A stretch of 64,000 nucleotides of DNA from Candidatus Binatota bacterium (lineage in GTDB: Bacteria; Desulfobacterota; Binatia; UBA1149): contig DUBO01000012.1 of assembly GCA_012960245.1 (NCBI GenBank), forward strand, positions 1 to 64,000, given 5' to 3'. The notes below the pieces were generated by a model. It searched no databases, had not been told where the DNA came from, and saw only the letters and a program-made list of their open reading frames with translations. This document shows, one piece after another, positions 5,149-62,740 of the stretch. A program made the translations under genes and the position numbers. How positions within the stretch are numbered: position 1 is the stretch's first letter; each line of letters begins with the position of its first letter.

Positions 5149-5585
5149 TTGTTGGGCGACAACACGCACCGCGTCCCATGCTCCGACGGCAGCAAGGCTT
5201 CACGCTGCTCGAAGTGGTGATCGCCGTTTCCTTCATGGCGGTGGCCATGGCCGCGTGCATGGAGCTGTTCTCGGGTAGCCTCAAGCTCGCCGGGCGGGCT
5301 TCTGCCAGCAGCGAGGCCACTATACTGGCCTCTTCGGTCATGGACGGAGTGATGTGGAAGGTTGAGCTCGATGACACCGAGGAGCGCGGCAGCGAAGGTC
5401 GTTTTGACTGGACTCTTTCGGTGACCGGCGTCGAGGCCGAGCTGGGCGCCTGGGAGGGCGTGCCGCGTGAAGAGCTCAGCGATGATTACGAACTCAAGAG
5501 GGTTGAAGTCACAGTTGCCTGGCGAGGCGTTTCGGGCGACCGCCGGGTGGCGCTGGCCACCACGCGCATGCAGGAGAAGTACTGA
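5145..5585 (+). CDS. gspI: Minor pseudopilin GspI
   Basis: A 146-residue prepilin-like protein with the signal 'QQG/FTLLEVVIAVSFMAVAM' (Glu at +5). In characterised systems GspI is the initiator of the pseudopilus tip and forms a complex with GspJ and GspK. The N-terminal extension before the cleavage site (MIVGRQHAPRPMLRRQQG) is somewhat long; an internal ATG in that stretch gives a shorter signal and is an equally possible start. It lies between gspH, with a four-base overlap, and gspJ. Confidence 0.9.
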   Translation: MIVGRQHAPRPMLRRQQGFTLLEVVIAVSFMAVAMAACMELFSGSLKLAGRASASSEATILASSVMDGVMWKVELDDTEERGSEGRFDWTLSVTGVEAELGAWEGVPREELSDDYELKRVEVTVAWRGVSGDRRVALATTRMQEKY

Positions 5586-49310: not shown

Positions 49311-50204
49311 GTGGGCGGAGTAGGCACGATCACGGGTATGGTACTGGCCGCGCTGGTCAGTGTGCCCTGTGCAGCCGAAGCTGAACAGCAGCCGGGCGTC
49401 GCCCCGGTGGCTGTGGCCCCAGCGACTGCGGCCCCAGTGGCTGCTGCTCCAGTGGCGGCGGCTCCAGTGGCTGCGGCTCCAGTGGCTGCGGCTCCAGTGG
49501 CTGCGGCTCCAGTGGCTGCGGCTCCAGTGGCTGCGCCCCAAGCAGCTGGTGCTGATACAGGCGCCCCGCAGGCAGACCTCTCCCAAGCCGCGGCGGCGGG
49601 AACAGCAGCGGTGGTAGTAGAACTTCCCGGAGTGGTGCAGGTGGCCGCCATACACGCATCGAACAAATCTCGGGCTTTTGATCCCCAGCTGCAGCCCTAC
49701 AGACCCGAACTCAAGCGCATGCGTTTCAAGAACTACGAACTCATCGAGGCCACCAAACAGAACGTGCAGGCCGGCGACCAGTACGGCATGGAGTTGCCGG
49801 GCAATCGTTACCTGCACATAACAGCGCTCGACAGCACGACCGAGTACCTGCAACTGAGAGTTCTTGTCAACGAGAACAACCGCCCGATCGTAAACACCGA
49901 TGTGCGCATCAACCGAGGCGCACCGTTGCTAATTGCCGGCCCCAAGATGGGCAGCAACGGCACGTTGATTCTTGCCATACAGGCCACGCCGCCAGTGCCT
50001 GGCCCGGAGCGAGCAAGCGCTCGCGTGGCCAGCGGCCAGCGGCTGCCACAGGTGGTTGGCGGGGCTACGGCTCCGGTCGGGGTCAACGCTTCAAGCCGCG
50101 AACAACTGGCCAACGACGATGCACCCACGGCTGTAGAGCCGGCTGCTATTCCGGCCCAGGCTCCCGCGGTCCCGGCTGCCGTTCCGGCGACGGACCTGCG
50201 CTGA
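49311..50204 (+). CDS. Exported protein with APVAA tandem repeats and a C-terminal beta domain
   Basis: A 297-residue protein starting at GTG three bases after the anti-sigma gene. A signal peptide (about 1-24, ending 'PCAAEA') is followed by seven near-identical APVAA pentapeptides (see repeat entry), a Pro/Ala linker that could span the peptidoglycan layer. A compact beta-rich domain of about 105 residues follows ('QPYRPELKRMRFKNYELIEA', 'QYGMELPGNRYLHITALD', 'VNTDVRINRGAPLLIAGPKM'). The last 60 residues are again Pro/Ala-rich. The domain is not assigned to a family. Co-transcription with an ECF sigma/anti-sigma pair suggests an envelope-stress target or sensor. Confidence 0.75.
   Translation: MGGVGTITGMVLAALVSVPCAAEAEQQPGVAPVAVAPATAAPVAAAPVAAAPVAAAPVAAAPVAAAPVAAAPVAAPQAAGADTGAPQADLSQAAAAGTAAVVVELPGVVQVAAIHASNKSRAFDPQLQPYRPELKRMRFKNYELIEATKQNVQAGDQYGMELPGNRYLHITALDSTTEYLQLRVLVNENNRPIVNTDVRINRGAPLLIAGPKMGSNGTLILAIQATPPVPGPERASARVASGQRLPQVVGGATAPVGVNASSREQLANDDAPTAVEPAAIPAQAPAVPAAVPATDLR
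49431..49535 (+). repeat. Seven 15-bp tandem repeats encoding APVAA
   Basis: Seven consecutive units of consensus gctccagtggctgcg. The last five are identical; the first two differ by one to three bases. The 15-base unit keeps the frame, so copy number can change by slippage without breaking the protein. Confidence 0.95.
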
Positions 50205-50574: not shown

Positions 50575-50612
50575 AAGGGCAGCGCGGCCGGGTTCTCCTG
50601 CTTCAGCTGCCC
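50573..50612 (-). terminator. Intrinsic terminator of sat
   Basis: On the minus strand GGGCAGC (50606-50612) pairs with GCTGCCC (50577-50583) and is followed by TTTT (50573-50576). The first arm overlaps the last codons of sat. It lies between two convergent genes and has no T-tract on the plus strand. Confidence 0.55.
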
Positions 50613-51865
50613 TGGGCCATGTGGTGGCACAGGATGTCTGAGGTTCCTTCGCGCATGATACGCGGGTCTACCTTTTCGCCAGCCAGCAGGGTCTTTCGCA
50701 CGTCCTTGCCCGATATGAACACGGGCTTTTCCTCGTCGTGGTTCTCCATCAGGTCCACCCGGCCAAGCGACTCGTAGTAGGCAGCAAAGCCTACGTTGAC
50801 CGTCTGTATGTCGAGCTTGCCGTTGAGCTTGCCGAAGATTTCCTGGGCGTCAAAGTCACCCCAGATGGCCGAGCCGTCGGCGAAGGGCGCGTCGGCGTGC
50901 TTACGGCCGATGATGATGTCGGTAAAGCCGTAGTTCTGCCGGTAGATGCCGTGCATGACAGCTTCTTTCGGGCCGCCATAGTACATCTTGATATCAAGAC
51001 CGAGCAGCATGACGCGGTCGGGCACCGAGTCGTCCCTCGCGTCCCACAGGGCCGGGTCGCTGTCGCCTTCGCCTATGCCACGCGATTCGATCAGGGCCTG
51101 GTAGGTCTGCATCCTCACCTCGGCGTTGACGTCGTCGCCCTTGGTCTCGCCCACGAGCGGGTTGAGACAGGCGCCGGCGTTAAGATCCTGCTTGAGCAGC
51201 GTCTCCAGTCCGTACACCAGTGCGTACTCGTGGGCGCGGTGCAGGGGGTTTCGGGTCTGGAAGGCCACCACACGCTCCCAACCCAGGTCTGCGAGCATCT
51301 GCCTGACCTCCACCGGGGATTTCACCGAGGCGCCGAAAGCCGGGTTTGTGGGCTGGGGAAGCACGCGTATGGAGCCACCCAGCAGGTGGCTGCAAGCGGC
51401 GTCGCCCTTGAGTGCCATGTCGGCTCCCGGGTGGTCTTCGCGGGTAGTGCCGTAGACGCTTTCGAGGTAGCGGGGCTTGTCCCACTCGTACACGTCTGTC
51501 AGTTCGAGGATGGCCACCAGATCGCCGCCGGGGGATTCGAGCGCCACCGACTGCCCGGCCGAAAGCGTGGCCGCCAGCTCTGCGCTCACGGGCAGGGCCA
51601 TGGGGATGGTCCAGGCGTAGCGCTCACCGTTGTTCTCGATGACGCCCTCGTCGAGCGAAAGATTCCACGCGGCCTCTCCCATGGGGCCCTCCAGCGGGCT
51701 CAAGGCGCCGTCGCCGAAGCGGTAGACCGTAGAAAGATCGGCTGCCGAAACGGGCACGCGGGTGAGCGAGGCGGCTTCGCTGGCAAAGCTGCCGAGGTCG
51801 GCTTCGGCGACTGTTCGGTTTACCGGGGTGCTGAGTCCGCCGTGGGGCGAGATAAGGTCGGGCAT
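50603..51865 (-). CDS. sat: Sulfate adenylyltransferase (ATP sulfurylase), Sat type
   Basis: A 420-residue single-chain ATP sulfurylase that converts sulfate and ATP to APS. The PUA-like N-terminal domain leads to the catalytic part with '[18 protein letters not shown]' (the Q-x-R-N-P-x-H-R-x-H motif) and '[13 protein letters not shown]', the counterpart of the GRxHAG motif with Asp replacing Gly. No fused APS kinase domain is present, and no apr, dsr or cysD/N genes are in the window, so assimilatory use is more likely than dissimilatory. GAGGAG precedes the ATG. The next gene upstream on this strand is an anion permease. Confidence 0.94.
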
Positions 51866-51999: not shown

Positions 52000-53454
52000 C
52001 TACAGGTGGATGTAGCCGGCCCAGGTCCAGTAGAAGCGCACCGTGAGATTGAACACGACCCAGCCGGTGGCGCCCATAATCGCGCCGGGCAGGATGATGT
52101 CGCGCAGGCGCAGAAAGCCCGACGAGTAGGCGATGGCGTTAGCCGGTGTGCCGATGGGAAACGCGAAGGCCAGCCCCGCCGGTATGGCGATGAGCGGCGC
52201 TATGGTGGCGGGCACCAGGCCTATGGTGTCGGCCATTCCAAGGCCCATGGGCATCATCAACGCCACCACGGCCGAGTTGCTTATGGCCTCGGTGAGCAAC
52301 CAGGAACTCGCCGACAGGGCGGCGACGGCGCTCGAGGGGCTGTCGGCCATCAGGCCCAGGGTGCGCTGGGCCAGCCAGGTGGCGGCCCCCGAATCGTTGA
52401 GCGCCGCGCCCAGGCAGATCGCGCCGCCGTACATCAGGATGATGCCCCAGTTGACGTACTCCTCCACGTCGCGCCACTTGACCAGCTTGAACACGAACAG
52501 CAGCACGATGGCGCCTATGGCCACGTTGGCCAGCCCGAGGTTGTGCCCGGCCAGCACCCAGGTGGCCACGGTTCCGAGCATTACGGCTCCTATGGCCTTC
52601 TCGTCACGGCTCATCGGGCCCAGTTTCGCCACCTTTTCGGCCAGGGCCGTCTCGGCGTCGGCCACGCTGTCCTGATCGATGGGGAAAAATCTGGTTATGA
52701 CCAGCCAGCCCACCCCCAACATGACCACTACCACCGGCAGCGCCCTGAGCGTCCAGTCGAGAAAGGTAAAGGGGTTCGTGCCCTCGTACTGCTCCAGTAT
52801 GCCCAGGGCCAGCGGCGCGCGCCCCCCGCCAAGCAGGGTGGCCACCCCGCCTATGGTTGAGCCCCAGGCCAGCGCCAGGAACAGGGCCTTGGCATAGCTG
52901 CTGCGGCGCTGCCTGAGCTTGAGCACCATGACTATCTCCATGATGATCGGAAAGTTCATGGCAGCCACCGCGTGTTCTGACATCCAGAAAGCCATGAAGG
53001 CGTTCATGAGAAAGACCGCGCAGAGCAGCGAGCGGGGGCTGTGACCGAAGCGTCGCAGGAAGAGCAGCCCCAGCCGCGTGGACAGGCCCGATTTCATCAG
53101 GCAGGCGGCCAGTATGAAGGCGCCCATGATGAAGAACACGGCAGAGTTGCCAAAAAGAGAATAGGCCTGCTCGGCCGGCATTATGCCCGTGAGCGGGATG
53201 AGGGCTATGGCCATCAGGCTGGTGATCATCAGCGGCAACACGTTGAGAACCCACCAGGTCAGGCACAGGGCGAATACCGCCATGGCCTTGCGTCCTTCTT
53301 CGGAGAGGCCCTCGGGAGTCTCCATGCTGTACACCAGCACGAACAGGCCCACGCCCAGGAGCAGGCGCAGGGGGCGGTTCAGCCGGCTGAGCAGCACCAG
53401 GGCCAGGGGCCGGGTGTCGACCACGTATTGTTTGCTGGTGTTTTCCTGGCTCAT
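52000..53454 (-). CDS. SLC13/DASS-family anion symporter (possible sulfate or dicarboxylate permease)
   Basis: A 484-residue inner-membrane transporter with 11-12 helices. The DASS/CitT signatures are visible: 'ALIPLTGIMPAEQAYSLFGN', 'SAVFFIMGAFILAACLMKSGLS' (split), 'LNDSGAATWLAQRTLG' and 'IPAGLAFAFPIGTPANAIAYSSG', the last a conserved substrate/Na-site loop. Members carry sulfate, citrate or C4-dicarboxylates with sodium. Because sat lies 134 bases downstream on the same strand, sulfate is a reasonable guess, but this is context only. Confidence 0.85.
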   Translation of the reverse strand: MSQENTSKQYVVDTRPLALVLLSRLNRPLRLLLGVGLFVLVYSMETPEGLSEEGRKAMAVFALCLTWWVLNVLPLMITSLMAIALIPLTGIMPAEQAYSLFGNSAVFFIMGAFILAACLMKSGLSTRLGLLFLRRFGHSPRSLLCAVFLMNAFMAFWMSEHAVAAMNFPIIMEIVMVLKLRQRRSSYAKALFLALAWGSTIGGVATLLGGGRAPLALGILEQYEGTNPFTFLDWTLRALPVVVVMLGVGWLVITRFFPIDQDSVADAETALAEKVAKLGPMSRDEKAIGAVMLGTVATWVLAGHNLGLANVAIGAIVLLFVFKLVKWRDVEEYVNWGIILMYGGAICLGAALNDSGAATWLAQRTLGLMADSPSSAVAALSASSWLLTEAISNSAVVALMMPMGLGMADTIGLVPATIAPLIAIPAGLAFAFPIGTPANAIAYSSGFLRLRDIILPGAIMGATGWVVFNLTVRFYWTWAGYIHL

Positions 53455-53515: not shown

Positions 53516-54742
53516 TCAGAGCTGGGAGGAATCGAAAGAGTCGCTCACCTGTTTGACCCGCAGGCGACGCCTGAACCGCGAAAGGCTGCGGGCCGCGCGG
53601 CCACCCAGCCTTGAACGGTAGAAGCTGCTCACCGCGACGTCCAGTTTAGCATCATCTCCGGCAAAGAATCGAGCTTCGAGCGGGGTGACGGCCTGGCCGA
53701 GATCGCGCAGCCACTGCAGGTTGAGCCTGCCCTCGCGCGCGGCCTTGTAGAGGTGGGCGTATACGGGCACCACGTCGTCGGGGTCGGTCAATGGGTGGGC
53801 GGCCAGGCTGGCCAGGTCAGAAGGACGGTGAAGCGATAGGACCGGCAGCACGCCCAGTGAAACCAGCAGGTCGATACCTTCCATGGTCGAGGTCGGTTCC
53901 TCCAATCCCACCATGAGGTCGCTCCATACGGTTCCGCGCGGGAATACCCGTGCCGCTCGCTCAAGGGCGGCCAGGGTCTGTTCGCGGGGCACCTGCGTGC
54001 ACCTGTCCGCGCAAGTCCTGGCCAGGCTCTTGTCGTCGAAGGTAAAAAGCGGGTAGTTCACTGCGTCCACGCCAGCGGCGTAGGCTCGGTCCACCCAGCC
54101 GGCATCGATCGGCGGGCTCACCTGTATGGCCACCAGGGTATCAAAATGCTCCTTGACGGCCTTAACGTAAGGCTCAAGCAGGGCGAAGCCTCCGTCGTCG
54201 TCGTGGTAGTGGCCGGTGCGAAAGTAAATGAACTCGACCGCGCCTTCGTCGAAGGCCGCGCGTATTACTTCGAGGACTTCTTCCAGGGGCCAGGGCTTGC
54301 GACGAGTGGCGCCGCGGTTGCGGCGGGCGGGGCAGAGCACGCAGGGCTTGCTCTCGCCTGCGAACGCACAGGCGCCGGCCGGGTCTATGGCGAGAAAGTC
54401 GCCGTGCAATAGCCCCAGCCGGTTCATCTTTGTGCCTGCCGAAGTCGTTTTTGCGTAGAATTCGGGCCGGCCCACCACGCTCACCGGCACCGGTGTTGAG
54501 TCGTCTCCGGTGCGCAGCAGGAAGCGGTCGTTTTCAACAGTAAGTCGATGCCTCGAACCGCCGTCTCCGCCCTTGTCGACCTGGCAGCTGGCCACGAGGT
54601 CACCGGGAAGCAGCAGCTCAACGAGGTTGTCGCCGCCGGGCTCGGTGCCGGCGGCCGCCAACTCGGCGGCTTCCAGTCCCTGCTCGAGTCTGAGCCCGCG
54701 CATGGCCAGCTCCAGCTTGAGGTGGGCCGAGCTGGCGTTCAA
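53516..54742 (-). CDS. Radical SAM-like protein with atypical C-x8-C-x2-C motif
   Basis: A 408-residue protein from a TTG overlapping the preceding stop (TTGA); a GTG 11 codons earlier is possible. After about 120 residues of unfamiliar N-terminal domain comes 'GLLHGDFLAIDPAGACAFAG' and three Cys spaced C-x8-C-x2-C ('ACAFAGESKPCVLCPARRN'), in place of the usual C-x3-C-x2-C. A TIM-barrel-like sequence follows with radical SAM character ('EVLEVIRAAFDEGAVEFIYF', 'AIQVSPPIDAGWVDRAYAAGVDAVNYPLF' in part, 'VWSDLMVGLEEPTSTMEGI'). I infer a 4Fe-4S cluster and SAM chemistry; the reaction is unknown. It is the last gene of the SAM-riboswitch sulfur operon. Confidence 0.7.
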   Translation of the reverse strand: MNASSAHLKLELAMRGLRLEQGLEAAELAAAGTEPGGDNLVELLLPGDLVASCQVDKGGDGGSRHRLTVENDRFLLRTGDDSTPVPVSVVGRPEFYAKTTSAGTKMNRLGLLHGDFLAIDPAGACAFAGESKPCVLCPARRNRGATRRKPWPLEEVLEVIRAAFDEGAVEFIYFRTGHYHDDDGGFALLEPYVKAVKEHFDTLVAIQVSPPIDAGWVDRAYAAGVDAVNYPLFTFDDKSLARTCADRCTQVPREQTLAALERAARVFPRGTVWSDLMVGLEEPTSTMEGIDLLVSLGVLPVLSLHRPSDLASLAAHPLTDPDDVVPVYAHLYKAAREGRLNLQWLRDLGQAVTPLEARFFAGDDAKLDVAVSSFYRSRLGGRAARSLSRFRRRLRVKQVSDSFDSSQL

Positions 54743-55194
54743 GCCTGCTCGCCTCGCAGCAGCCAGGCCAGGCACAGGCAGGCGGCCTCGCAGGCGGCGG
54801 CCTGTTCGAGGCCGGGCTCGTTAGGGGCCCCAGCAGAGGGTAGTTCGTTCGCCGGTAGCTTGTCGGAGGGCAGAAGCGCCATTGCGCTCGTTGTCTGCCC
54901 GTTTGCGTGGCCGTAGCAGGCAACGGGCGTGCCGGCTTCGAGCAGCCCGGCAGCCATCTGCATGCAGTTGGGACCAAGGAGCGCGCAGTCGCCCTGGTAG
55001 CGCTGGTCGGAGCCTGTCTCGCGGTCCACCGTAACGCCCGAAGCGGCCAGGTAATCGGCCGCCGTCTGCTGGCCGGGCGTGCAGCCGAGCACCAACACGC
55101 GGGCTGCGAGCAGGCGCTCTTGTCCGGCGATTCCAATTTCGGGCAGGATCACCTGCCTCGAGTAACGTTCGAGCTGTTCGTCGCTGAGCGACAT
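54739..55194 (-). CDS. Short degenerate E1-like (MoeB/ThiF N-terminal) protein
   Basis: A 151-residue protein. The first 37 residues are a textbook MoeB/ThiF N-terminus: 'LSDEQLERYSRQVILPEIGI' and 'GQERLLAARVLVLG'. The following nucleotide loop is ruined ('LGCTPGQQTAADYL' instead of GAGGLG), no ATP-binding Asp/Arg/Lys motifs follow, and the protein ends where a full E1 has 100 more residues. It keeps Arg13 of RYSRQ, equivalent to the arginine finger that MoeB-type enzymes insert into the partner subunit. The other E1 in this operon lacks exactly this segment. A decayed remnant is the alternative, but the frame is intact and coupled to its neighbour. Confidence 0.75.
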   Translation of the reverse strand: MSLSDEQLERYSRQVILPEIGIAGQERLLAARVLVLGCTPGQQTAADYLAASGVTVDRETGSDQRYQGDCALLGPNCMQMAAGLLEAGTPVACYGHANGQTTSAMALLPSDKLPANELPSAGAPNEPGLEQAAACEAACLCLAWLLRGEQA

Positions 55195-55201
55195 GACAGT
55201 T

Positions 55202-55441
55202 CTATTCTATTACGTTTTTCTCGATGGGTTCGACCTTGACTCCCTTGCCGGCCAGCCACTCCATCGCGTCGCGTATTTCGTCGCCGTCCCCGTCGAGTTC
55301 AAGCGCCACTATGCCAATGTGGTCGCTCACCGAGGCTCCGCGAATGTTGGTGACCACCTTGAACTTGTGTCCGAGCTGGTAAATCAGGGGTTCTTTGATC
55401 TTTTCCTGGCTGTAGGTCAGGTAGAAACGCTGCAGGGCCAT
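55202..55441 (-). CDS. NIL-domain protein
   Basis: A 79-residue ferredoxin-fold protein. I chose the ATG preceded by GAGGAGG; a longer frame runs into the cysteine synthase-like gene. 'LQRFYLTYSQEKIKEPLIYQ' and 'VTNIRGASVSDHIGIVALEL' are typical of the NIL domain, named from the MetN methionine importer where it senses methionine. Stand-alone NIL proteins are found with sulfur amino acid genes in Deltaproteobacteria and archaea. Here it may bind methionine or an intermediate and regulate neighbouring enzymes. Confidence 0.85.
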   Translation of the reverse strand: MALQRFYLTYSQEKIKEPLIYQLGHKFKVVTNIRGASVSDHIGIVALELDGDGDEIRDAMEWLAGKGVKVEPIEKNVIE

Positions 55442-55451
55442 GGCTCCCTCC

Positions 55452-56417
55452 TCATTGCTTGCGGGTCTGTTTGCGGTTTTTCCAGCCCATCCAAAGGTTG
55501 GTTGAAAGGTAACGGTCTCCAAAATCAGGGAAAATCACGACTATTAACCCCTCGTCGAGCTGCCGGGCCACTTCCAGCGCTCCGCAGAGGGCAGCGCCGC
55601 TGGATTGCCCAACCAGCATACCCTCGCTGGCAGCTATATCGTACACCATGTCGTAGGCGTCGTCGGTGGCCACGCCGATCTTGGAGTCGAGCTCCTGCTC
55701 CTTGAAGATTCCCGGCACGATCGAGCTCTCCATGTGCTTGAGCCCTTCGATGCCGTGAAAGGCGTCGGCCGGTTCAATGGCTATCACCTGCACGGCTTTG
55801 TTCTGGCTTTTCAGATAGCGGCCGGTGCCCATCACAGTGCCGCCGGTGCCGATACTGGCCACGAAGTGGGTAATGGCGCCTTCGGTTTGCTCCCAGATCT
55901 CAGGCCCGGTGGTCAAGAAGTGTGCCTCGGGGTTGGCCTCATTGAAATACTGGTCGGGCTTGAACCACTTGTCGGGCTCGGCCTCGTACATTTCGCGGCA
56001 CATCAGCAGCGCGCCGTCCGAACCCTCCAACGGGTCCGAATACACCGCGGTGGCTCCGTAGGCAGTCACGACGCGCTTGCGTTCGATAGACACGTTGGCG
56101 GGCATGACCAGGGTCACCGGAAAGCCCAGGGCCGCCCCGACCATGGCCAGGGCTATGCCGGTGTTGCCCGAAGTGGAGTCGAGTATGGTCTTGCCCGGGG
56201 CGAGTCTGCCTTCATCCAGCCCGTGTTTGAGCATGTTCCAAGCGGCGCGGTCCTTGACCGAGCCACCGGGGTTGAAGCCCTCCAGCTTGGCGTAGATCTT
56301 AACGCCGTCGGCCACGCCTTCGCGCAGCCGCTGGATCTCGACCAAGGGGGTGTTTCCCACCAGGTCACAGACGGTCCCGGCCGTGTGGGCCGCGACGCTT
56401 GCGGGCGTTGAACTCAC
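55452..56417 (-). CDS. Cysteine synthase-like PLP enzyme (CysM/CysK family)
   Basis: A 321-residue fold-type II PLP enzyme from GTG. 'DLVGNTPLVEIQRL', 'GFNPGGSVKDRAAWNML' (Schiff-base Lys), 'DSTSGNTGIALAMVGA' and 'IGTGGTVMGTG' are the family motifs. The sequence 'DFGDRYLSTNLW' ends the enzyme. It is clearly different from the CysK at 18.5-19.5 kb. Lying directly after a ThiS/MoaD-like carrier gene, it resembles the CysO-dependent CysM of Mycobacterium, which takes sulfur from a protein thiocarboxylate. Its acceptor could be phosphoserine, acetylserine or a homoserine ester; this is not decided by sequence. Confidence 0.88.
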   Translation of the reverse strand: MSSTPASVAAHTAGTVCDLVGNTPLVEIQRLREGVADGVKIYAKLEGFNPGGSVKDRAAWNMLKHGLDEGRLAPGKTILDSTSGNTGIALAMVGAALGFPVTLVMPANVSIERKRVVTAYGATAVYSDPLEGSDGALLMCREMYEAEPDKWFKPDQYFNEANPEAHFLTTGPEIWEQTEGAITHFVASIGTGGTVMGTGRYLKSQNKAVQVIAIEPADAFHGIEGLKHMESSIVPGIFKEQELDSKIGVATDDAYDMVYDIAASEGMLVGQSSGAALCGALEVARQLDEGLIVVIFPDFGDRYLSTNLWMGWKNRKQTRKQ

Positions 56418-56431
56418 CGCTGCCGAGCGCC

Positions 56432-56722
56432 TCAGCCCAACGACCGAGTGCCACCGGCGATGGCGGGCACTATCGACACCTCATCGCCATCCTTGAGCGG
56501 TGAGGCCAGGTTGTCGAGAAAACGAATGTCGTCGCCGTTCACGTAGACGTTTACAAAGCGCCGCACCGAGCCATCGTCTTCGCAGATCCTGCCTTTGAGC
56601 CCGGGGTGGTTTTTGTCGAGATCGTCGAGCAGCTCGGCTATCGAACTGCCTTCTACGGGTACGGTGTCGGCACCGCCGGTTAACTTTCGCAGTGGCGTGG
56701 GAATTCTTACTTCAACTGGCAT
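56432..56722 (-). CDS. MoaD/ThiS/CysO-like sulfur carrier protein with C-terminal extension
   Basis: A 96-residue beta-grasp protein of the ubiquitin-like sulfur carrier group. 'VEVRIPTPLRKLTGG', 'LKGRICEDDGSVRRFVNVYV' and 'NGDDIRFLDNLASPLKDGDEVSIVPA' match CysO/MoaD proteins. The Gly-Gly that is normally the exact C-terminus is followed by five more residues ('AIAGGTRSLG'). In HcyS and QbsE systems such an extension is trimmed by a JAMM-type metalloprotease before the E1 can adenylate the Gly. No such protease is seen in the window. The carrier lies between thrC and the cysteine synthase-like gene. Confidence 0.9.
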   Translation of the reverse strand: MPVEVRIPTPLRKLTGGADTVPVEGSSIAELLDDLDKNHPGLKGRICEDDGSVRRFVNVYVNGDDIRFLDNLASPLKDGDEVSIVPAIAGGTRSLG

Positions 56723-56846: not shown

Positions 56847-58082
56847 TCAGGTCAGGGTGGCGTACAGCTCGTCAAAATCTGCCAGCCTGGCCGGTATCAC
56901 GTGCGGTTCCTTCACGCTGGCGGTCACCGCCTCGATAGTCTTGTAGCCGTTGCCCGTAATGCTGATTACTATCGATTCGTCGCGCGGTATGCGGCCGGTG
57001 TCTATCAGCTTTTTTGTAACGGCAACGGTCGTACCGCCAGCCGGTTCGGTAAAAATACCCTCGGTGCGGGCCAGCAGCTTGATGCCCTCCACTATTTCTT
57101 CGTCGGTCACGCTCTCGCCCCAGCCGCTGTGCGAGCCGCGTACGGCCTTGAGCACGTAGTAACCGTCGGCCGGGTTTCCTATGGCTATCGACTTGGCAAT
57201 GGTGTCGGGCTTTACGGGTTCGATGAGTTCGCTGCCGGAGTGCAGGGCATTGATGACCGGCGCGCAACCCGACGCCTGGGCCGAGTAAATCGACCAAGGC
57301 TCGTCGGCCACCAGTCCGAGGCGGGTAAACTCTTCGAAGGCCCGCGCCACCTTGGGCAGTATGGTGCCGCCGGCGGTGGGCACCACTATGTGGCGGGGCA
57401 GTTTCCAACCCAGCTGCTCGGCCACCTCGAAGCCGTAGGTCTTGGCGCCCTCGGTGTAGAAGGGACGCAGGTTGATGTTGACGAAGGCCCAGCGGTACTT
57501 GTCGGCTATCTCGGCGCACAGCCTGTTTACATCATCGTAGTTGCCCTTGATGGCCACCGGGACCGGGTCGTAGATGACCGAGCCAATGACCTTGCCCTGC
57601 TCGAGGTTGTCGGGGATGAAGATGTAACATTTTAACCCGGCGCGCGCGGCGTGGGCCGACACCGAGTTGGCAAGGTTGCCCGTTGACGCGCAGGCCACGG
57701 TGTCAAAGCCCAGCTCCACGGCCTTGCTTATGGCCACCGAGACCACGCGATCCTTGTAGGAAAAGGTCGGGTGGTTGCAGGAGTCGTCCTTGACGTAGAG
57801 CTCTTCGACCCCCAGCTCACGGGCCAGATGATCGGCCTTTACAAGCGGCGTCCAGCCCGAATACAGGCCTATGGTGGGCTCGTTTTCCACGGGCAGCAAC
57901 TCGCGGTAGCGCCACAGGTTATGAGGTCGCGACTCGATGAGCTCCCTGCTTATGACCGAGGCGATGGCGTCGTAGTCGTACTCCACCTCCAGCGGGCCGA
58001 AGCAGTACTCGCACACGTGCTCGGGGCCGATTTTGTATTTTTCGCCGCACTCGCGGCAGGTCAGTCCATTTACGAAAGCCAT
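56847..58082 (-). CDS. thrC: Threonine synthase
   Basis: A 411-residue PLP enzyme of fold type II. I chose the ATG giving 'MAFVNGLTCRECGEKYKIGP'; a longer frame lies inside the ThiF gene. The N-terminus has a rubredoxin-like zinc motif ('CRECGEKY', 'CEYCFGPLE'), common in this subclass. 'DDSCNHPTFSYKDRVVSVA' holds the Schiff-base Lys, 'ACASTGNLANSVSAHAA' the Ser-x-Gly-Asn loop and 'VPTAGGTILPKV' the phosphate loop. Normally it makes threonine from phosphohomoserine. Its place between an E1 and a sulfur carrier under a SAM riboswitch raises the possibility of a sulfur-transfer reaction on phosphohomoserine. Confidence 0.9.
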   Translation of the reverse strand: MAFVNGLTCRECGEKYKIGPEHVCEYCFGPLEVEYDYDAIASVISRELIESRPHNLWRYRELLPVENEPTIGLYSGWTPLVKADHLARELGVEELYVKDDSCNHPTFSYKDRVVSVAISKAVELGFDTVACASTGNLANSVSAHAARAGLKCYIFIPDNLEQGKVIGSVIYDPVPVAIKGNYDDVNRLCAEIADKYRWAFVNINLRPFYTEGAKTYGFEVAEQLGWKLPRHIVVPTAGGTILPKVARAFEEFTRLGLVADEPWSIYSAQASGCAPVINALHSGSELIEPVKPDTIAKSIAIGNPADGYYVLKAVRGSHSGWGESVTDEEIVEGIKLLARTEGIFTEPAGGTTVAVTKKLIDTGRIPRDESIVISITGNGYKTIEAVTASVKEPHVIPARLADFDELYATLT

Positions 58083-58807
58083 GATTCCTGTCTCCGTTGT
58101 CCTGTTTCCTGCACCTGCAGGGGGTCTAGCCTGGTAACTGCCGTGGCGCAGATGCAGCCCGGCCTTGGCCGAAATTCCACGCTGCGCCAGCGCGGCTGTT
58201 TGATCTGAAATATTCTCATGCACCCGCCGCGGGCACGTGCGGGATCGGCGAGTACGCGCGAGGCTTCGAGCGCCTGAAGTGAGCCTAGGACGCCGGCAAC
58301 CGGGCCAAGCAGGCCCAGCTCGCCGCAGCCCTCGCCGGTGGTGCCGGCCATGTTGTCAGGCGAGGCGGCCCCGGGCGGAAAGACACACTCCAGGCAGGCC
58401 GAGCGCCCTGGGATGACCGTCATCAACTGCCCGCCCATGCGGGCTACGCCGGCGTGGCAGAAAGGCGTACCGCTGGCGAGCGCCGTGCGGTTGATGACAA
58501 ACTTGCTGGCCGGGTCGTCGCAGGCGTCGATAACGAAATCGTGTTTCTCAAACAATGAAGCAGCGTTGTCCTCGTCAAGGCGAAGGGGCAGGGCGGCGAT
58601 CTCCAGATCGGGCTGCCCGGCCAACAGTGCGAGTCGGGCCTGCTCGGCCTTGTTGCGGCCCAGGGTCGAACGGTCGAACAACAGCTGCCGTTGCAGGTTG
58701 GACAGCTCAACTCGGTCGGGGTCGATCAGGGTCAGGGCGAAGCCCGGCGTTGCAGCAAGCGCCGAGGCCGCCGGGCAGCCCAAGGCACCGGCGCCCACTA
58801 TGAGCAC
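58070..58807 (-). CDS. ThiF/MoeB/HesA-family E1-like adenylyltransferase lacking the N-terminal segment
   Basis: About 245 residues from the GTG chosen here, which has AGAGGAA 12 bases upstream. An in-frame ATG at 58861 lies inside the riboswitch terminator and is rejected; TTG codons at 58846 and 58843 are other options. 'LIVGAGALGCPAASALA' is the nucleotide loop, 'DPDRVELSNLQRQLLF' has the Asp and Arg of the ATP site, 'LGRNKAEQA' the Lys and 'VIDACDDPASKFV' the catalytic Asp. A zinc-type 'CLEC' is present, and Cys in 'TTGEGCGELGLLG' may be the sulfur-relay Cys. The usual first 35 residues with the RYxRQ arginine finger are absent. It should adenylate the sulfur carrier's Gly-Gly. It overlaps thrC by 13 bases. 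Confidence 0.85.
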   Translation of the reverse strand: MLIVGAGALGCPAASALAATPGFALTLIDPDRVELSNLQRQLLFDRSTLGRNKAEQARLALLAGQPDLEIAALPLRLDEDNAASLFEKHDFVIDACDDPASKFVINRTALASGTPFCHAGVARMGGQLMTVIPGRSACLECVFPPGAASPDNMAGTTGEGCGELGLLGPVAGVLGSLQALEASRVLADPARARGGCMRIFQIKQPRWRSVEFRPRPGCICATAVTRLDPLQVQETGQRRQESWLS

Positions 58808-58844
58808 CCGTCGTCTGTTCCTCTGTGGCTGTCGTTCGCGCAAC

Positions 58845-58890
58845 AAAAAACCCCTTCCCATCGGCCTTTACTTGCGTGGCCAGGAAGAGG
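58845..58890 (-). terminator. Expression-platform terminator of the SAM riboswitch
   Basis: On the minus strand CCTCTTCC (58883-58890) pairs with GGAAGGGG (58851-58858), GGCC pairs with GGCC inside, and six T follow (58845-58850). The 5' arm is shared with an antiterminator: GGAAcGGTT (58898-58906) pairs with AACCtcTTCC (58883-58892). Confidence 0.85.
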
Positions 58891-59029
58891 TTCTAGTAAC
58901 CGTTCCCGCCCCATTTTCCGCATCTGCAACCAAGGCAGGCGTAGGAATTAGCACCTGCACTTCCCCGCGGGGAAGCCGGCTGCTGTGGTTTCAACGGGCC
59001 TAATCCCTCCACCACTCGCAATAAGGCAG
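58845..59029 (-). ncRNA. SAM-I (S-box) riboswitch with transcription-terminator platform
   Basis: The minus strand has the S-box core: GGTGGAGGGA, GGCCCGTTGAAACC, an extended P3 hairpin (GGCTTCCCCGCGGGGAAG region) and AGGTGCTAATTCC. P1 can form between CTGCCTTATT (59020-59029) and AATGGGGCGG (58906-58915), ten pairs with three G-U. The aptamer is 58906-59029; the antiterminator and terminator fill 58845-58906. The promoter 5' of it would start transcription at the P1 strand. High SAM should favour P1, release the terminator and switch off the sulfur operon. The 58808-59171 stretch holds only this element, its promoter and about 110 bases with nothing recognised. Confidence 0.9.
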
Positions 59030-59033
59030 CCCA

Positions 59034-59062
59034 AGAGTAGCGCTTGGCCCGGGGGCTGTCAA
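59034..59062 (-). promoter_or_regulatory. Sigma70-type promoter of the SAM-riboswitch operon
   Basis: A perfect TTGACA (59057-59062) and TACTCT (59034-59039) on the minus strand, 17 bases apart. The expected start at about 59027-59028 falls at the 5' strand of riboswitch P1, which supports both calls. Confidence 0.7.
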
Positions 59063-59909: not shown

Positions 59910-60581
59910 TCAGCTACCGGCCAGTCGTTCGCGGGCTTCGCGCGCGGCCGAGGTCAGCGGATACTCGTCGAGGACGAAGTGGAAGCGGAGGTCCGCCGCA
60001 GCGGTGTCGCCCGTTCGGCGGTAGTAGTCGCCCACGTACAGTTCCTGGTCGGCCAGGTTCTCGTGGCATTCGGCCTTGCGAAAGCGAGCCAGGGTGGCCC
60101 ACACCGAGTCGGGGTACCTGAGTATCACCCGGTCGAAGTGCAGTATGGAGTTGACCGATGAGCTCTTGTCCCTGTCGGCCGAGCTCGCCTGGTCGAGCCA
60201 GCACATGCCCGTGATGTACTGCGAAAAAGCTATGGCTTTACTGGCAGGATAGCGTCGCTCGAAGTCTTCGAAGGTGCTCACCGCCTGGTCGTACTTCCGG
60301 CCGAGGTAAAACGCATGGGCCACGCGCAGCCTGGCCAGCTCGGAGTGTTCAGAGAACGGGTGCTGGTCGAGCAATCGACTGTATTCTTCTACCGCGAGCA
60401 TATAGTTACCCGACTCGAAGGCCCGCGCCGCGTTCACCGCGAGGTGGGTTTCCTTGGGCGGCGGGGGAGTCGAGCAGCTCGCTGCCGATAACAGCAGCAG
60501 GCTGGCAAGGAGGCAGGGGACCAGCTGACCTGCCAGGATCCGGGAACGCTTGAGCGAAAATGACTGTAGCCCGTGTTTCAC
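59910..60581 (-). CDS. bamD: BamD-like outer-membrane assembly lipoprotein
   Basis: About 223 residues from GTG 60581; the frame can also start at TTG 60590. The lipoprotein signal ends 'LLASLLLLSAASCSTPPPP'. TPR-like repeats follow with BamD pattern ('ARAFESGNYMLAVEEYSRLLDQHPFSEHS' in part, 'KYDQAVSTFEDFERRYP', 'YPDSVWATLARFRKAEC', 'YYRRTGDTAAADLRF'). BamD is the essential lipoprotein of the beta-barrel assembly machine with BamA. No other bam gene is in the window. Confidence 0.9.
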   Translation of the reverse strand: MKHGLQSFSLKRSRILAGQLVPCLLASLLLLSAASCSTPPPPKETHLAVNAARAFESGNYMLAVEEYSRLLDQHPFSEHSELARLRVAHAFYLGRKYDQAVSTFEDFERRYPASKAIAFSQYITGMCWLDQASSADRDKSSSVNSILHFDRVILRYPDSVWATLARFRKAECHENLADQELYVGDYYRRTGDTAAADLRFHFVLDEYPLTSAAREARERLAGS

Positions 60582-60650
60582 AACCCGCAATGTAGCGGCT
60601 GGCGTCGGCAGGGTCTACAGTGGGCCGGCTCGCAGGGCTGGGCGAGGTAT

Positions 60651-61622
60651 ATGGCTGATACCAGGCTGCAGATAGTGGTTGGCAAGGGAGGCGTGGGCAA
60701 GTCCACTGTCGCGGCGGCACTGGCTTTGGAAAGAGCGGCGCGCGGTGGACGGGTGCTGGCGCTTGAGCTGGGCGGTAGCGGCGGGCTGGCGCGAGCGCTG
60801 GGCGTTGAGTCCTCGTCCGACCCGGTAAAGACAAGTCAGGCCTTGCCGCCGGGCGAAGTCTACGTGGCGTCAGTGGATGGCGAGGCGGCGCTCTCGGAAT
60901 ACCTGGCCCTGATGGTACCCGTGCGGCGAATGCTTCACGGCGTGACGACCAGCCGCTTTTACAAGGCCTTCGTCGGTGCCGCGCCGGGGCTGAAAGAACT
61001 GATGGCCGTAGGCAAGGTCTGGTACGAGTGCCAGAAGACCAACGACGACGGCAGCCCGACCTGGACTACCGTCATAGTTGAGGCCGGCGCCACCGGCCAC
61101 AGCTTGCGCTACCTGCGTATGCCAGAGGTAGCTGCGCGGACTTTTGGCTCGGGCCTGGTGCACAGGGAGGCCGTCAGGGTGGGCGACATGCTGTGCGATC
61201 CCGACTACTGCCGCGTGCACGTGGTGGCCTTGCCCGAGGCGATGCCCTTGTCCGAGGCCCGCGAGGTGCTGGTCGCGCTCGATGAAGAACTGGGCATGGA
61301 GGTGGGCAGGCTCATCGTGAACTGTTGTCGACAGGCCGCGCCGCCCGCGGCCGAGCGCTTGTCCGGCGAGTTGGCGACTGCTGCATCAAGCGGGCCGGAG
61401 GGTGGTTTGGCTACCGTCCTGGCCGAGCTGGCAGCACGCGAGCTGTCCTGGCTTGGGATACAGGAACGAGGTCTTGAGCGTATAGAACGCGACAGCGGGC
61501 GCCGGGTGCTGAGGCTGCCCTTGCTGGTGGCAGAAGAGTTCGGACCGGCCGAGCTCAGCCGGCTCGCCGGGTTGCTGGCCGGAGAGCCGGGTATCAACGC
61601 AGGCGGGGTGGCTGAGTCGTGA
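60651..61622 (+). CDS. ArsA/Get3-like ATPase, subunit lacking the switch aspartates
   Basis: A 323-residue P-loop protein of the ArsA/Get3/MinD superfamily; the ATG has GAGG just upstream and replaces a longer frame start. The deviant Walker A 'VVGKGGVGKSTVA' keeps the signature Lys12. The switch I motif, DPA in Get3, is replaced by Gly-rich 'LELGGSGGLARALG', and the switch II Asp is Glu ('IVEAGATGHSLRYL'). It may bind nucleotide yet hydrolyse poorly. It overlaps the second ATPase gene by four bases. Paired ArsA-like ATPases occur in Actinobacteria and Myxococcota; their client (membrane-protein targeting or an unknown cargo) is not known here. Confidence 0.82.
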   Translation: MADTRLQIVVGKGGVGKSTVAAALALERAARGGRVLALELGGSGGLARALGVESSSDPVKTSQALPPGEVYVASVDGEAALSEYLALMVPVRRMLHGVTTSRFYKAFVGAAPGLKELMAVGKVWYECQKTNDDGSPTWTTVIVEAGATGHSLRYLRMPEVAARTFGSGLVHREAVRVGDMLCDPDYCRVHVVALPEAMPLSEAREVLVALDEELGMEVGRLIVNCCRQAAPPAAERLSGELATAASSGPEGGLATVLAELAARELSWLGIQERGLERIERDSGRRVLRLPLLVAEEFGPAELSRLAGLLAGEPGINAGGVAES

Positions 61623-62740
61623 GCGTGGGCGGGCTGCTTTCAGAGCACCGAGTGATTGTGTGCGTGGGTAGCGGCGGGGTGGGCAAAACCACCATCGCGG
61701 CGGCGCTGGCTTTGCGAGCTGCCGCCGAGGGCAAACGCGCCATGGTTCTCACCATCGATCCGGCCCGTAGGCTTGCCCAGGCACTGGGGCTGGACTCTCT
61801 GGCCAGCGGAGGACAGCGGGTGAGCGAAGAGGCGCTGGCCGCGGCCGACTGTCGCGTGAGCGGTACGCTCAGCGCCGGCATGCTCGAGCAGAAGGGCGCC
61901 TGGGACGATTTCATCCGCCGCAGCGCGGCCTCCGACAAAATCGCGGAGGCCATACTGGCTAACGAGTTTTACGGCCACCTGTCGGTTTCCTTCGCGGGTT
62001 CTGCCGAATACATGGCCGTTGAGGAACTCGCGCGCATAGTTGACTCCGAGCAGTACGATGTCGTCGTTCTCGACACGCCGCCCACGGCCCACGCGCTGGA
62101 CTTTCTGCTCGCGCCCCGGCGCCTGCGCGAGTTTCTTGATCGTTCGTTACTGGGGTGGTTGGTCAAGCCGTCGGTCGCGGCAGGAAAAGTGGCGTGGAAG
62201 ACCGCGCGGCGCAGCCTGGGCTACGTGCTCGACCGCCTGGAGGAGGCTACCGGGGCCCAGGCCCTGGCCTCGATAGCCGAGTTCTTTGTGGCCATGGATA
62301 CGTTGTTTGACGGTGTCGCTGAGCGAGGGGCCAGGGTGAGCGCGTTGCTCGAAAGCGAGCAGACGGCCTTCGTGCTGGTGGCCGGACCCGACGACAGGGT
62401 GCTCGACGAGAGTGACTACCTGCAACGGCGTATGGCTGAGCTGGGTGTTCCCCTGAGGGCGGTGGTGATCAACCGCCTGGCCGTATGCCCGCTGCAACCC
62501 GAGGCCCCGGCCCGCACCGAGGCCGCAGCATTGCTCGATGGGATGGATTCGGACGAGCTGGCCCGCAGCTGGCTTCTACAACTGTGGGACGACGCCTGGC
62601 GTGTGAGCCAGGGACAGGAACAGCGGCTGGAGGCCTTCGAGGCCCAGCTGCCCAAGGAGGTGAGAGTAGCCAGGGTGCCCGAAATGGATCACGACCTGCA
62701 CGAGCTGTCCGACCTGGCCGTCGTTGCGGCCGAACTGTAA
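61619..62740 (+). CDS. ArsA/Get3-like ATPase, subunit lacking the signature lysine
   Basis: A 373-residue partner of the preceding ATPase, GTG start, GTGA overlap. Walker A is 'CVGSGGVGKTTIAAAL', so the signature Lys of the deviant motif is Ser18, while the catalytic-loop Lys23 remains. Switch I 'LTIDPARRLAQALG' (Asp47) and switch II 'VVLDTPPTAHALDFLLAP' are intact. The active-site elements lost here are present in the partner and the reverse, as expected for a heterodimer in which each site borrows residues across the interface. No arsenic resistance gene is nearby, so arsenite export is unlikely. Confidence 0.85.
   Translation: MSVGGLLSEHRVIVCVGSGGVGKTTIAAALALRAAAEGKRAMVLTIDPARRLAQALGLDSLASGGQRVSEEALAAADCRVSGTLSAGMLEQKGAWDDFIRRSAASDKIAEAILANEFYGHLSVSFAGSAEYMAVEELARIVDSEQYDVVVLDTPPTAHALDFLLAPRRLREFLDRSLLGWLVKPSVAAGKVAWKTARRSLGYVLDRLEEATGAQALASIAEFFVAMDTLFDGVAERGARVSALLESEQTAFVLVAGPDDRVLDESDYLQRRMAELGVPLRAVVINRLAVCPLQPEAPARTEAAALLDGMDSDELARSWLLQLWDDAWRVSQGQEQRLEAFEAQLPKEVRVARVPEMDHDLHELSDLAVVAAEL

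Follow-up and report, generated by a model that had tools for sequence, protein, structure and literature searches.

The question raised by this locus was which pathway a SAM-I riboswitch controls in a Candidatus Binatota (class Binatia) genome where the genes behind it are not, as with other SAM-I elements, those of met transsulfuration or transport. In their place stands a carrier-dependent operon built around MetM, a paralogue of threonine synthase. The window, the whole stretch of DNA that was analysed, is 64 kb long, and the operon was followed through 96 Binatia genomes and into other phyla. We hold it highly likely that the locus is a methionine-precursor operon of the MetM/MetO type, controlled by the SAM-I element and its terminator, with an E1 that is most likely a heterodimer.

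The leader RNA and its operon

A first-pass annotation, made from the letters alone, had placed a SAM-I (S-box) riboswitch on the minus strand and proposed a scan with the Rfam model RF00162. That scan gave a full-length match at 59027–58908 (minus strand, model positions 1–108) with a score of 66.7 bits (E 2.4e-13) against a gathering score of 44.4 bits, and the riboswitch is real. No other Rfam match passed threshold in the window, and the genome as a whole gave no second RF00162 match above the cut-off. The switch resembles other SAM-I elements in its full aptamer match and its terminator expression platform, and it presumably binds SAM as they do; the switch itself belongs to a known kind of riboswitch and is not where the novelty lies.

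The promoter, terminator and P1 helix that had been claimed were also found. The sigma-70-like promoter TTGACA-N17-TACTCT was read directly from the minus strand (59062–59034, with boxes at 59062–59057 and 59039–59034) and had the same letters in two sister species (L063 and L064). An intrinsic terminator followed the aptamer at 58892–58845 (minus strand), with stem arms CCTCTTCC and GGAAGGGG, then U6, and a hairpin of about −22 kcal/mol. Terminators were located 36–60 nt past the aptamer in 25 of 32 homologous leaders. The P1 helix, described as having ten pairs, formed up to 10 when folded in the window and 8 in the consensus. Among 16 homologous aptamers, changes on both sides were retained at 12 of the 32 pairs, and the four-helix core was intact. 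The claimed antiterminator is a possible further element: many relatives have a P1 3′ strand, GATAAGG, that complements CCTTATC of the terminator 5′ arm, a relation that is less clear in the window.

The terminator 3′ arm holds AAGGGG, a sequence resembling a ribosome-binding site, ahead of the first gene. Most relatives have a purine-rich stretch in this arm followed by a U-tract and an in-frame TTG, so the terminator hairpin may also mask the ribosome-binding site. Because the ATG at 58861 falls within the hairpin, the first gene probably starts at the TTG at 58846 or 58843.

A switch of a related type was found at 5288–5408 of contig C7 of genome G000 (locus L002). This SAM-I/IV riboswitch (RF01725, 46.4 bits) lies ahead of unidentified genes on a contig of 7.3 kb that, since the switch is absent from sister species, may be foreign to the bin.

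Nine genes follow the SAM-I switch, all on the minus strand. The first encodes E1a, a ThiF/MoeB-type adenylating enzyme (58070–58846; PF00899, 1.8e-55) with a complete active site and no N-terminal arginine-finger segment. Next come the MetM-like threonine-synthase paralogue, the proposed homocysteine synthase (56847–58073; PF00291/TIGR00260), and a MetO-like sulfur carrier of the ThiS/MoaD type (56432–56722; PF02597, 3.2e-18). They are followed by a CysM-like cysteine synthase (55452–56417; TIGR01138, 382 bits, slightly below the cut-off of 394) and a small stand-alone NIL-domain protein (55202–55522; PF09383, 1.1e-12), homologues of which were found in 47 of 98 relatives. The sixth gene encodes E1b (54739–55194), a degenerate E1-like protein of 151 residues in which ERYSRQ is kept and the adenylation site is gone. 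The last three encode a radical SAM protein (variant_rSAM, MSMEG_0568-like; 53516–54775; NF045502, 130 bits, cut-off 125), a DASS-family sodium:anion symporter, probably for sulfate (52000–53454; TIGR00785, 269 bits), and ATP sulfurylase, sat (50603–51865; PF01747, 2.5e-56).

The profile matches thus agreed in kind with the earlier calls of ThiF, threonine synthase-like, ThiS, CysM, NIL and radical SAM genes. To these are added the second, degenerate E1-like gene and, probably, the transporter and ATP sulfurylase. The end of the E1b gene overlaps with the radical SAM gene, which is downstream of E1b in many relatives too; many relatives also have the DASS gene after the radical SAM gene, and sat has the same neighbourhood in relatives. 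The transcript may well continue past the NIL gene, probably to include the symporter gene and possibly sat. Elsewhere in the window we noted, by eye, two tandem ArsA/GET3-like ATPase genes on the plus strand (60573–62740) and, at 49311–50204, a protein with alanine-rich repeats (VAAAPVAAAPVA) that is probably secreted or at the surface.

The order E1-ThrC-carrier-CysM, with the switch upstream, was kept in most of the fetched relatives. Because several operons have no NIL gene, MetM rather than NIL was used as the operon marker. SAM-I homologues were present in 47 of the 96 Binatia genomes, distributed as 44 of 56 genomes with MetM and 3 of 40 genomes without it. In the latter three (L083 in G004, L085 in G040, and L092 in G077) the switch still precedes E1-carrier-CysM. 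Related operons without the element, which the first-pass annotation took to speak against it, did occur (12 of the 56 MetM-bearing genomes); we read them as lineage-specific loss. Upstream of six such operons (L094–L098 and L100, belonging to families f5, f6 and f7), no other riboswitch was found at Rfam gathering thresholds.

MetM and the probable route to homocysteine

Across the 96 genomes the ThrC-like enzyme of the operon scored at least 628 bits, and other ThrC proteins scored at most 259. The genome of the window has a canonical thrC beside hom on contig C51, apart from the operon copy, as well as a separate CysK at C12:18579 and MetH. It has no MetX and no full-length PF01053 enzyme (MetB, MetC, MetY or MetZ), only weak partial matches of which the best was 3.5e-7. 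A MetY-type carrier pathway is therefore ruled out there, and the DUF39/NIL pathway is ruled out by the absence of DUF39/HcyBio (PF01837) from all 96 genomes, this one included.

MetM and PF01053 enzymes had a complementary distribution. MetM alone was found in 25 Binatia genomes, a PF01053 enzyme alone in 38, both in 31, and neither in 2; for this table the Fisher p value was 1.8e-5, which is descriptive because the genome counts are related by descent. The two genomes with neither (G012 and G057) are contig-edge artefacts, the other operon genes being at a contig end in both. The 25 genomes with MetM and no PF01053 enzyme come from nine families, and in other phyla three of the four MetM genomes tested were without PF01053 enzymes. 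Because MetM and PF01053 enzymes occur together in 31 genomes, MetM is not always the sole route.

Adjacency of MetM and the carrier recurs in many phyla. In Nonomuraea, a SAM-I element, a MetM protein 51% identical to that of the window, and a Gly-Gly carrier stand in one row. In five Nitrospirota loci (L136, L141, L156, L181 and L183), MetM, carrier and NIL genes are directly followed by a second ThrC gene (35–37% identity), probably the canonical one, an arrangement in which the two enzymes that use O-phosphohomoserine are encoded next to each other. Close homologues of the operon ThrC-like gene were also found among Aquificota records. That Aquifex and Acidimicrobium have an unknown route to homocysteine was pointed out by Price et al. 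2018 (PMC5764234).

Synteny, the switch and the identity to the Nonomuraea protein suggest that the ThrC-like protein of the window is a MetM-type orthologue. The gene content had led to the proposal that a methionine precursor is the product of the carrier pathway; the missing alternative enzymes, the complementary distribution and the match to the published MetM/MetO pair support this proposal. We conclude that the operon very probably makes the precursor homocysteine, using a ubiquitin-like sulfur carrier.

The operon might instead serve mainly for cysteine, as CysO-CysM does in Mycobacterium, with the switch governing general sulfur assimilation and the ThrC-like protein acting as an ordinary threonine synthase. 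The presence of CysM, sat and a sulfate symporter in the cluster would fit such a role, as would the three genomes in which SAM-I-E1-carrier-CysM occurs without MetM. However, all three of these possess a full PF01053 enzyme, and genomes without such enzymes cannot convert cysteine to homocysteine by transsulfuration. The canonical ThrC and CysK are encoded elsewhere in the genome, and in other phyla it is MetM, not CysM, that constantly stands beside the carrier. We regard a mainly cysteine-directed operon as improbable and retain homocysteine as its probable product.

The carrier of the window ends in ...SIVPAIAGG followed by TRSLG, and so has the form of a pro-protein. Residues beyond Gly-Gly were present in 40 of 54 Binatia carriers (1–12 extra residues) and in 38 of 50 carriers elsewhere. 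Since most carriers extend past Gly-Gly, trimming is probably needed, and QbsE and HcyS are known precedents for carriers made as pro-forms. The sole Prok-JAB protein of the genome, the candidate for this step, is encoded on contig C52, outside the operon.

A proposed two-part E1

E1a and E1b have lost different parts of an E1. E1a keeps the GxGxxG, DxDxVExSNLxRQ and CxxC motifs and has no RYxRQ segment ahead of the nucleotide strand. E1b keeps ERYSRQ, and the segment that holds the nucleotide and catalytic residues is gone. The missing N-terminus of E1a is not an annotation error: the stop-to-stop frames are without the finger motif, and several are too short upstream. The E1s were scored in the fetched operons, excluding loci cut at contig ends. 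A truncated E1a was accompanied by an inactive E1b in 41 operons, a complete E1a stood without E1b in 12, and one operon (L072, family f10) had two complete E1s; the coupling of E1a truncation to E1b had no exceptions among the scorable operons. A single complete E1 is found in families f5 and f14. In MetM neighbourhoods outside Binatia, every scorable E1 was complete; E1s of Phycisphaerae that at first appeared to have no finger motif were rejected as further cases, RYHRQ being present.

The E1b sequences are divergent (about 25% mean identity in 45 sequences), and their only invariant residues are R13, Q14, Q25 and G53, of which R13 corresponds to MoeB Arg14. Over its whole length the E1b profile matched ThiF (5.6e-39) and MoeB (1e-33); when compared with eukaryotic canonical E1s, it matched only the inactive subunit SAE1 (5e-4). 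An AF2 model of E1b (pLDDT 75.7) had MoeB as its nearest structure. In the tree, truncated E1a formed one group and E1b formed one group, so the split probably occurred a single time and persisted as the families diverged.

Judged from these sequences, the E1 of this lineage is most likely a heterodimer in which E1a would provide the adenylation site and E1b the arginine finger. In MoeB, Arg14 is the finger from the neighbouring subunit (PMC13139853). On balance we favor an origin of the two-gene E1 of Binatia inside bacteria by reciprocal degeneration, in which E1a kept adenylation while a shrinking E1b came to supply the arginine finger and half of the dimer. The single complete E1 of f5 and f14 and the pair of complete E1s seen in f10 and in other phyla would then survive as other states.

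A less probable reading, which we nevertheless take seriously, is that E1b stands apart from the E1 as a pseudo-enzyme that regulates or chaperones the carrier, and that E1a acts as a finger-less homodimer, as reported for E. coli TcdA. The finger is reported to be non-essential in MoeB and ThiF and absent from TcdA (PMC13139853), which weakens the claim that R13 is catalytic and makes a structural role possible; moreover, according to the tree, the E1a-E1b coupling has arisen a single time. On the other hand, every scorable operon with a segment-less E1a also has E1b, which is absent wherever E1a is complete and single, and the finger motif comprises the best-conserved residues of E1b. The canonical MoeB encoded elsewhere in the genome could also serve as an alternative partner of E1a. 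That E1b is simply a decaying pseudogene left by an E1 duplication, as the loss of the catalytic stretch and its reduction to 119–151 residues in some families might suggest, is very improbable. Each of the 41 scored E1b-bearing operons, which span 11 families, has an intact E1b gene at its usual position, the dN/dS of 0.18–0.29 indicates purifying selection on E1b, and the four invariant residues have been retained. A paired E1a and E1b thus remains the reading that we prefer, and the novelty appears to lie here. None of the open papers searched was found to describe a sulfur-carrier E1 that is a heterodimer encoded by two genes; this feature looks new.

Proposed pathway and known systems

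The RNA element, the gene content, the paralogy, the missing alternative enzymes, the complementary distribution and the reciprocal degeneration were established here, and the following pathway would join them. A JAMM protease encoded elsewhere in the genome would trim the carrier tail behind Gly-Gly, and the E1 would adenylate the C-terminal glycine of the trimmed carrier. Sulfur would then be loaded onto the carrier as a thiocarboxylate, from which MetM would convert O-phosphohomoserine to homocysteine, to be methylated by MetH. When SAM is plentiful, the riboswitch and terminator would lower transcription of the operon.

Hasebe et al. reportedly described in 2024 (in AEM) that Streptomyces MetM/MetO makes homocysteine from O-phosphohomoserine and a carrier thiocarboxylate. 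Because that published route uses the same pair, the Binatota pathway is not new. A SAM riboswitch is reported to lie upstream of metM in S. albulus (PMC12172450, citing Hasebe 2024). The two systems share a ThrC-like enzyme by a carrier, this riboswitch, and the lack of canonical homocysteine genes. Compared with the Streptomyces system as reported, the Binatota operon adds the E1 pair, CysM, NIL, radical SAM and sulfate uptake genes, and its carrier often extends past Gly-Gly.

Two other carrier systems are similar in part. Wolinella uses HcyS, HcyD, HcyF and the PF01053 enzyme MetY to make homocysteine from a carrier thiocarboxylate, the carrier being made as a pro-form. The Binatota operon is like it in both the thiocarboxylate route and the pro-form but has MetM in place of MetY, and PF01053 is missing from the genome. 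The Mycobacterium CysO/CysM/Mec+ system is a cysteine pathway that also has its carrier beside a CysM. It corresponds to operon types 4c and 4d of PMC1779556; unlike it, the Binatota operon contains no JAMM protease, includes MetM and is SAM-controlled.

For the E1 pair, the nearest parallels are heterodimers. SAE1 and NAE1 carry an inactive E1 half (PMC12355090), BilD is a fused bacterial E1 pair (PMC11354881), and in yeast the inactive ThiF-fold protein Tcd1 provides its partner Tcd2 with an arginine finger (PMC13139853). In SAE1/UBA2, NAE1/UBA3, BilD and Tcd1-Tcd2, as proposed for the Binatia pair, one half has the adenylation site and the inactive half supplies the finger arginine. The Binatia proteins differ in being encoded by separate bacterial genes and in forming their putative complex for sulfur-carrier activation; E1b is also much reduced, and there is no sign of a catalytic-cysteine domain.

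The operon would explain methionine synthesis without the textbook enzymes in much of the uncultured phylum Binatota, and the same route probably serves Nitrospirota, Omnitrophota and others. Because MetM matches threonine-synthase models, genome-based predictions of auxotrophy are likely to miss it. If the E1 pair is heterodimeric, the operons with one E1, with two complete E1s and with a split E1 would be living stages of the type of step thought to lie behind the asymmetric eukaryotic E1s. The pair, whose small proteins make the idea easily tested, would then be a bacterial parallel to SAE1/UBA2 and NAE1/UBA3 that arose independently and is under SAM control.
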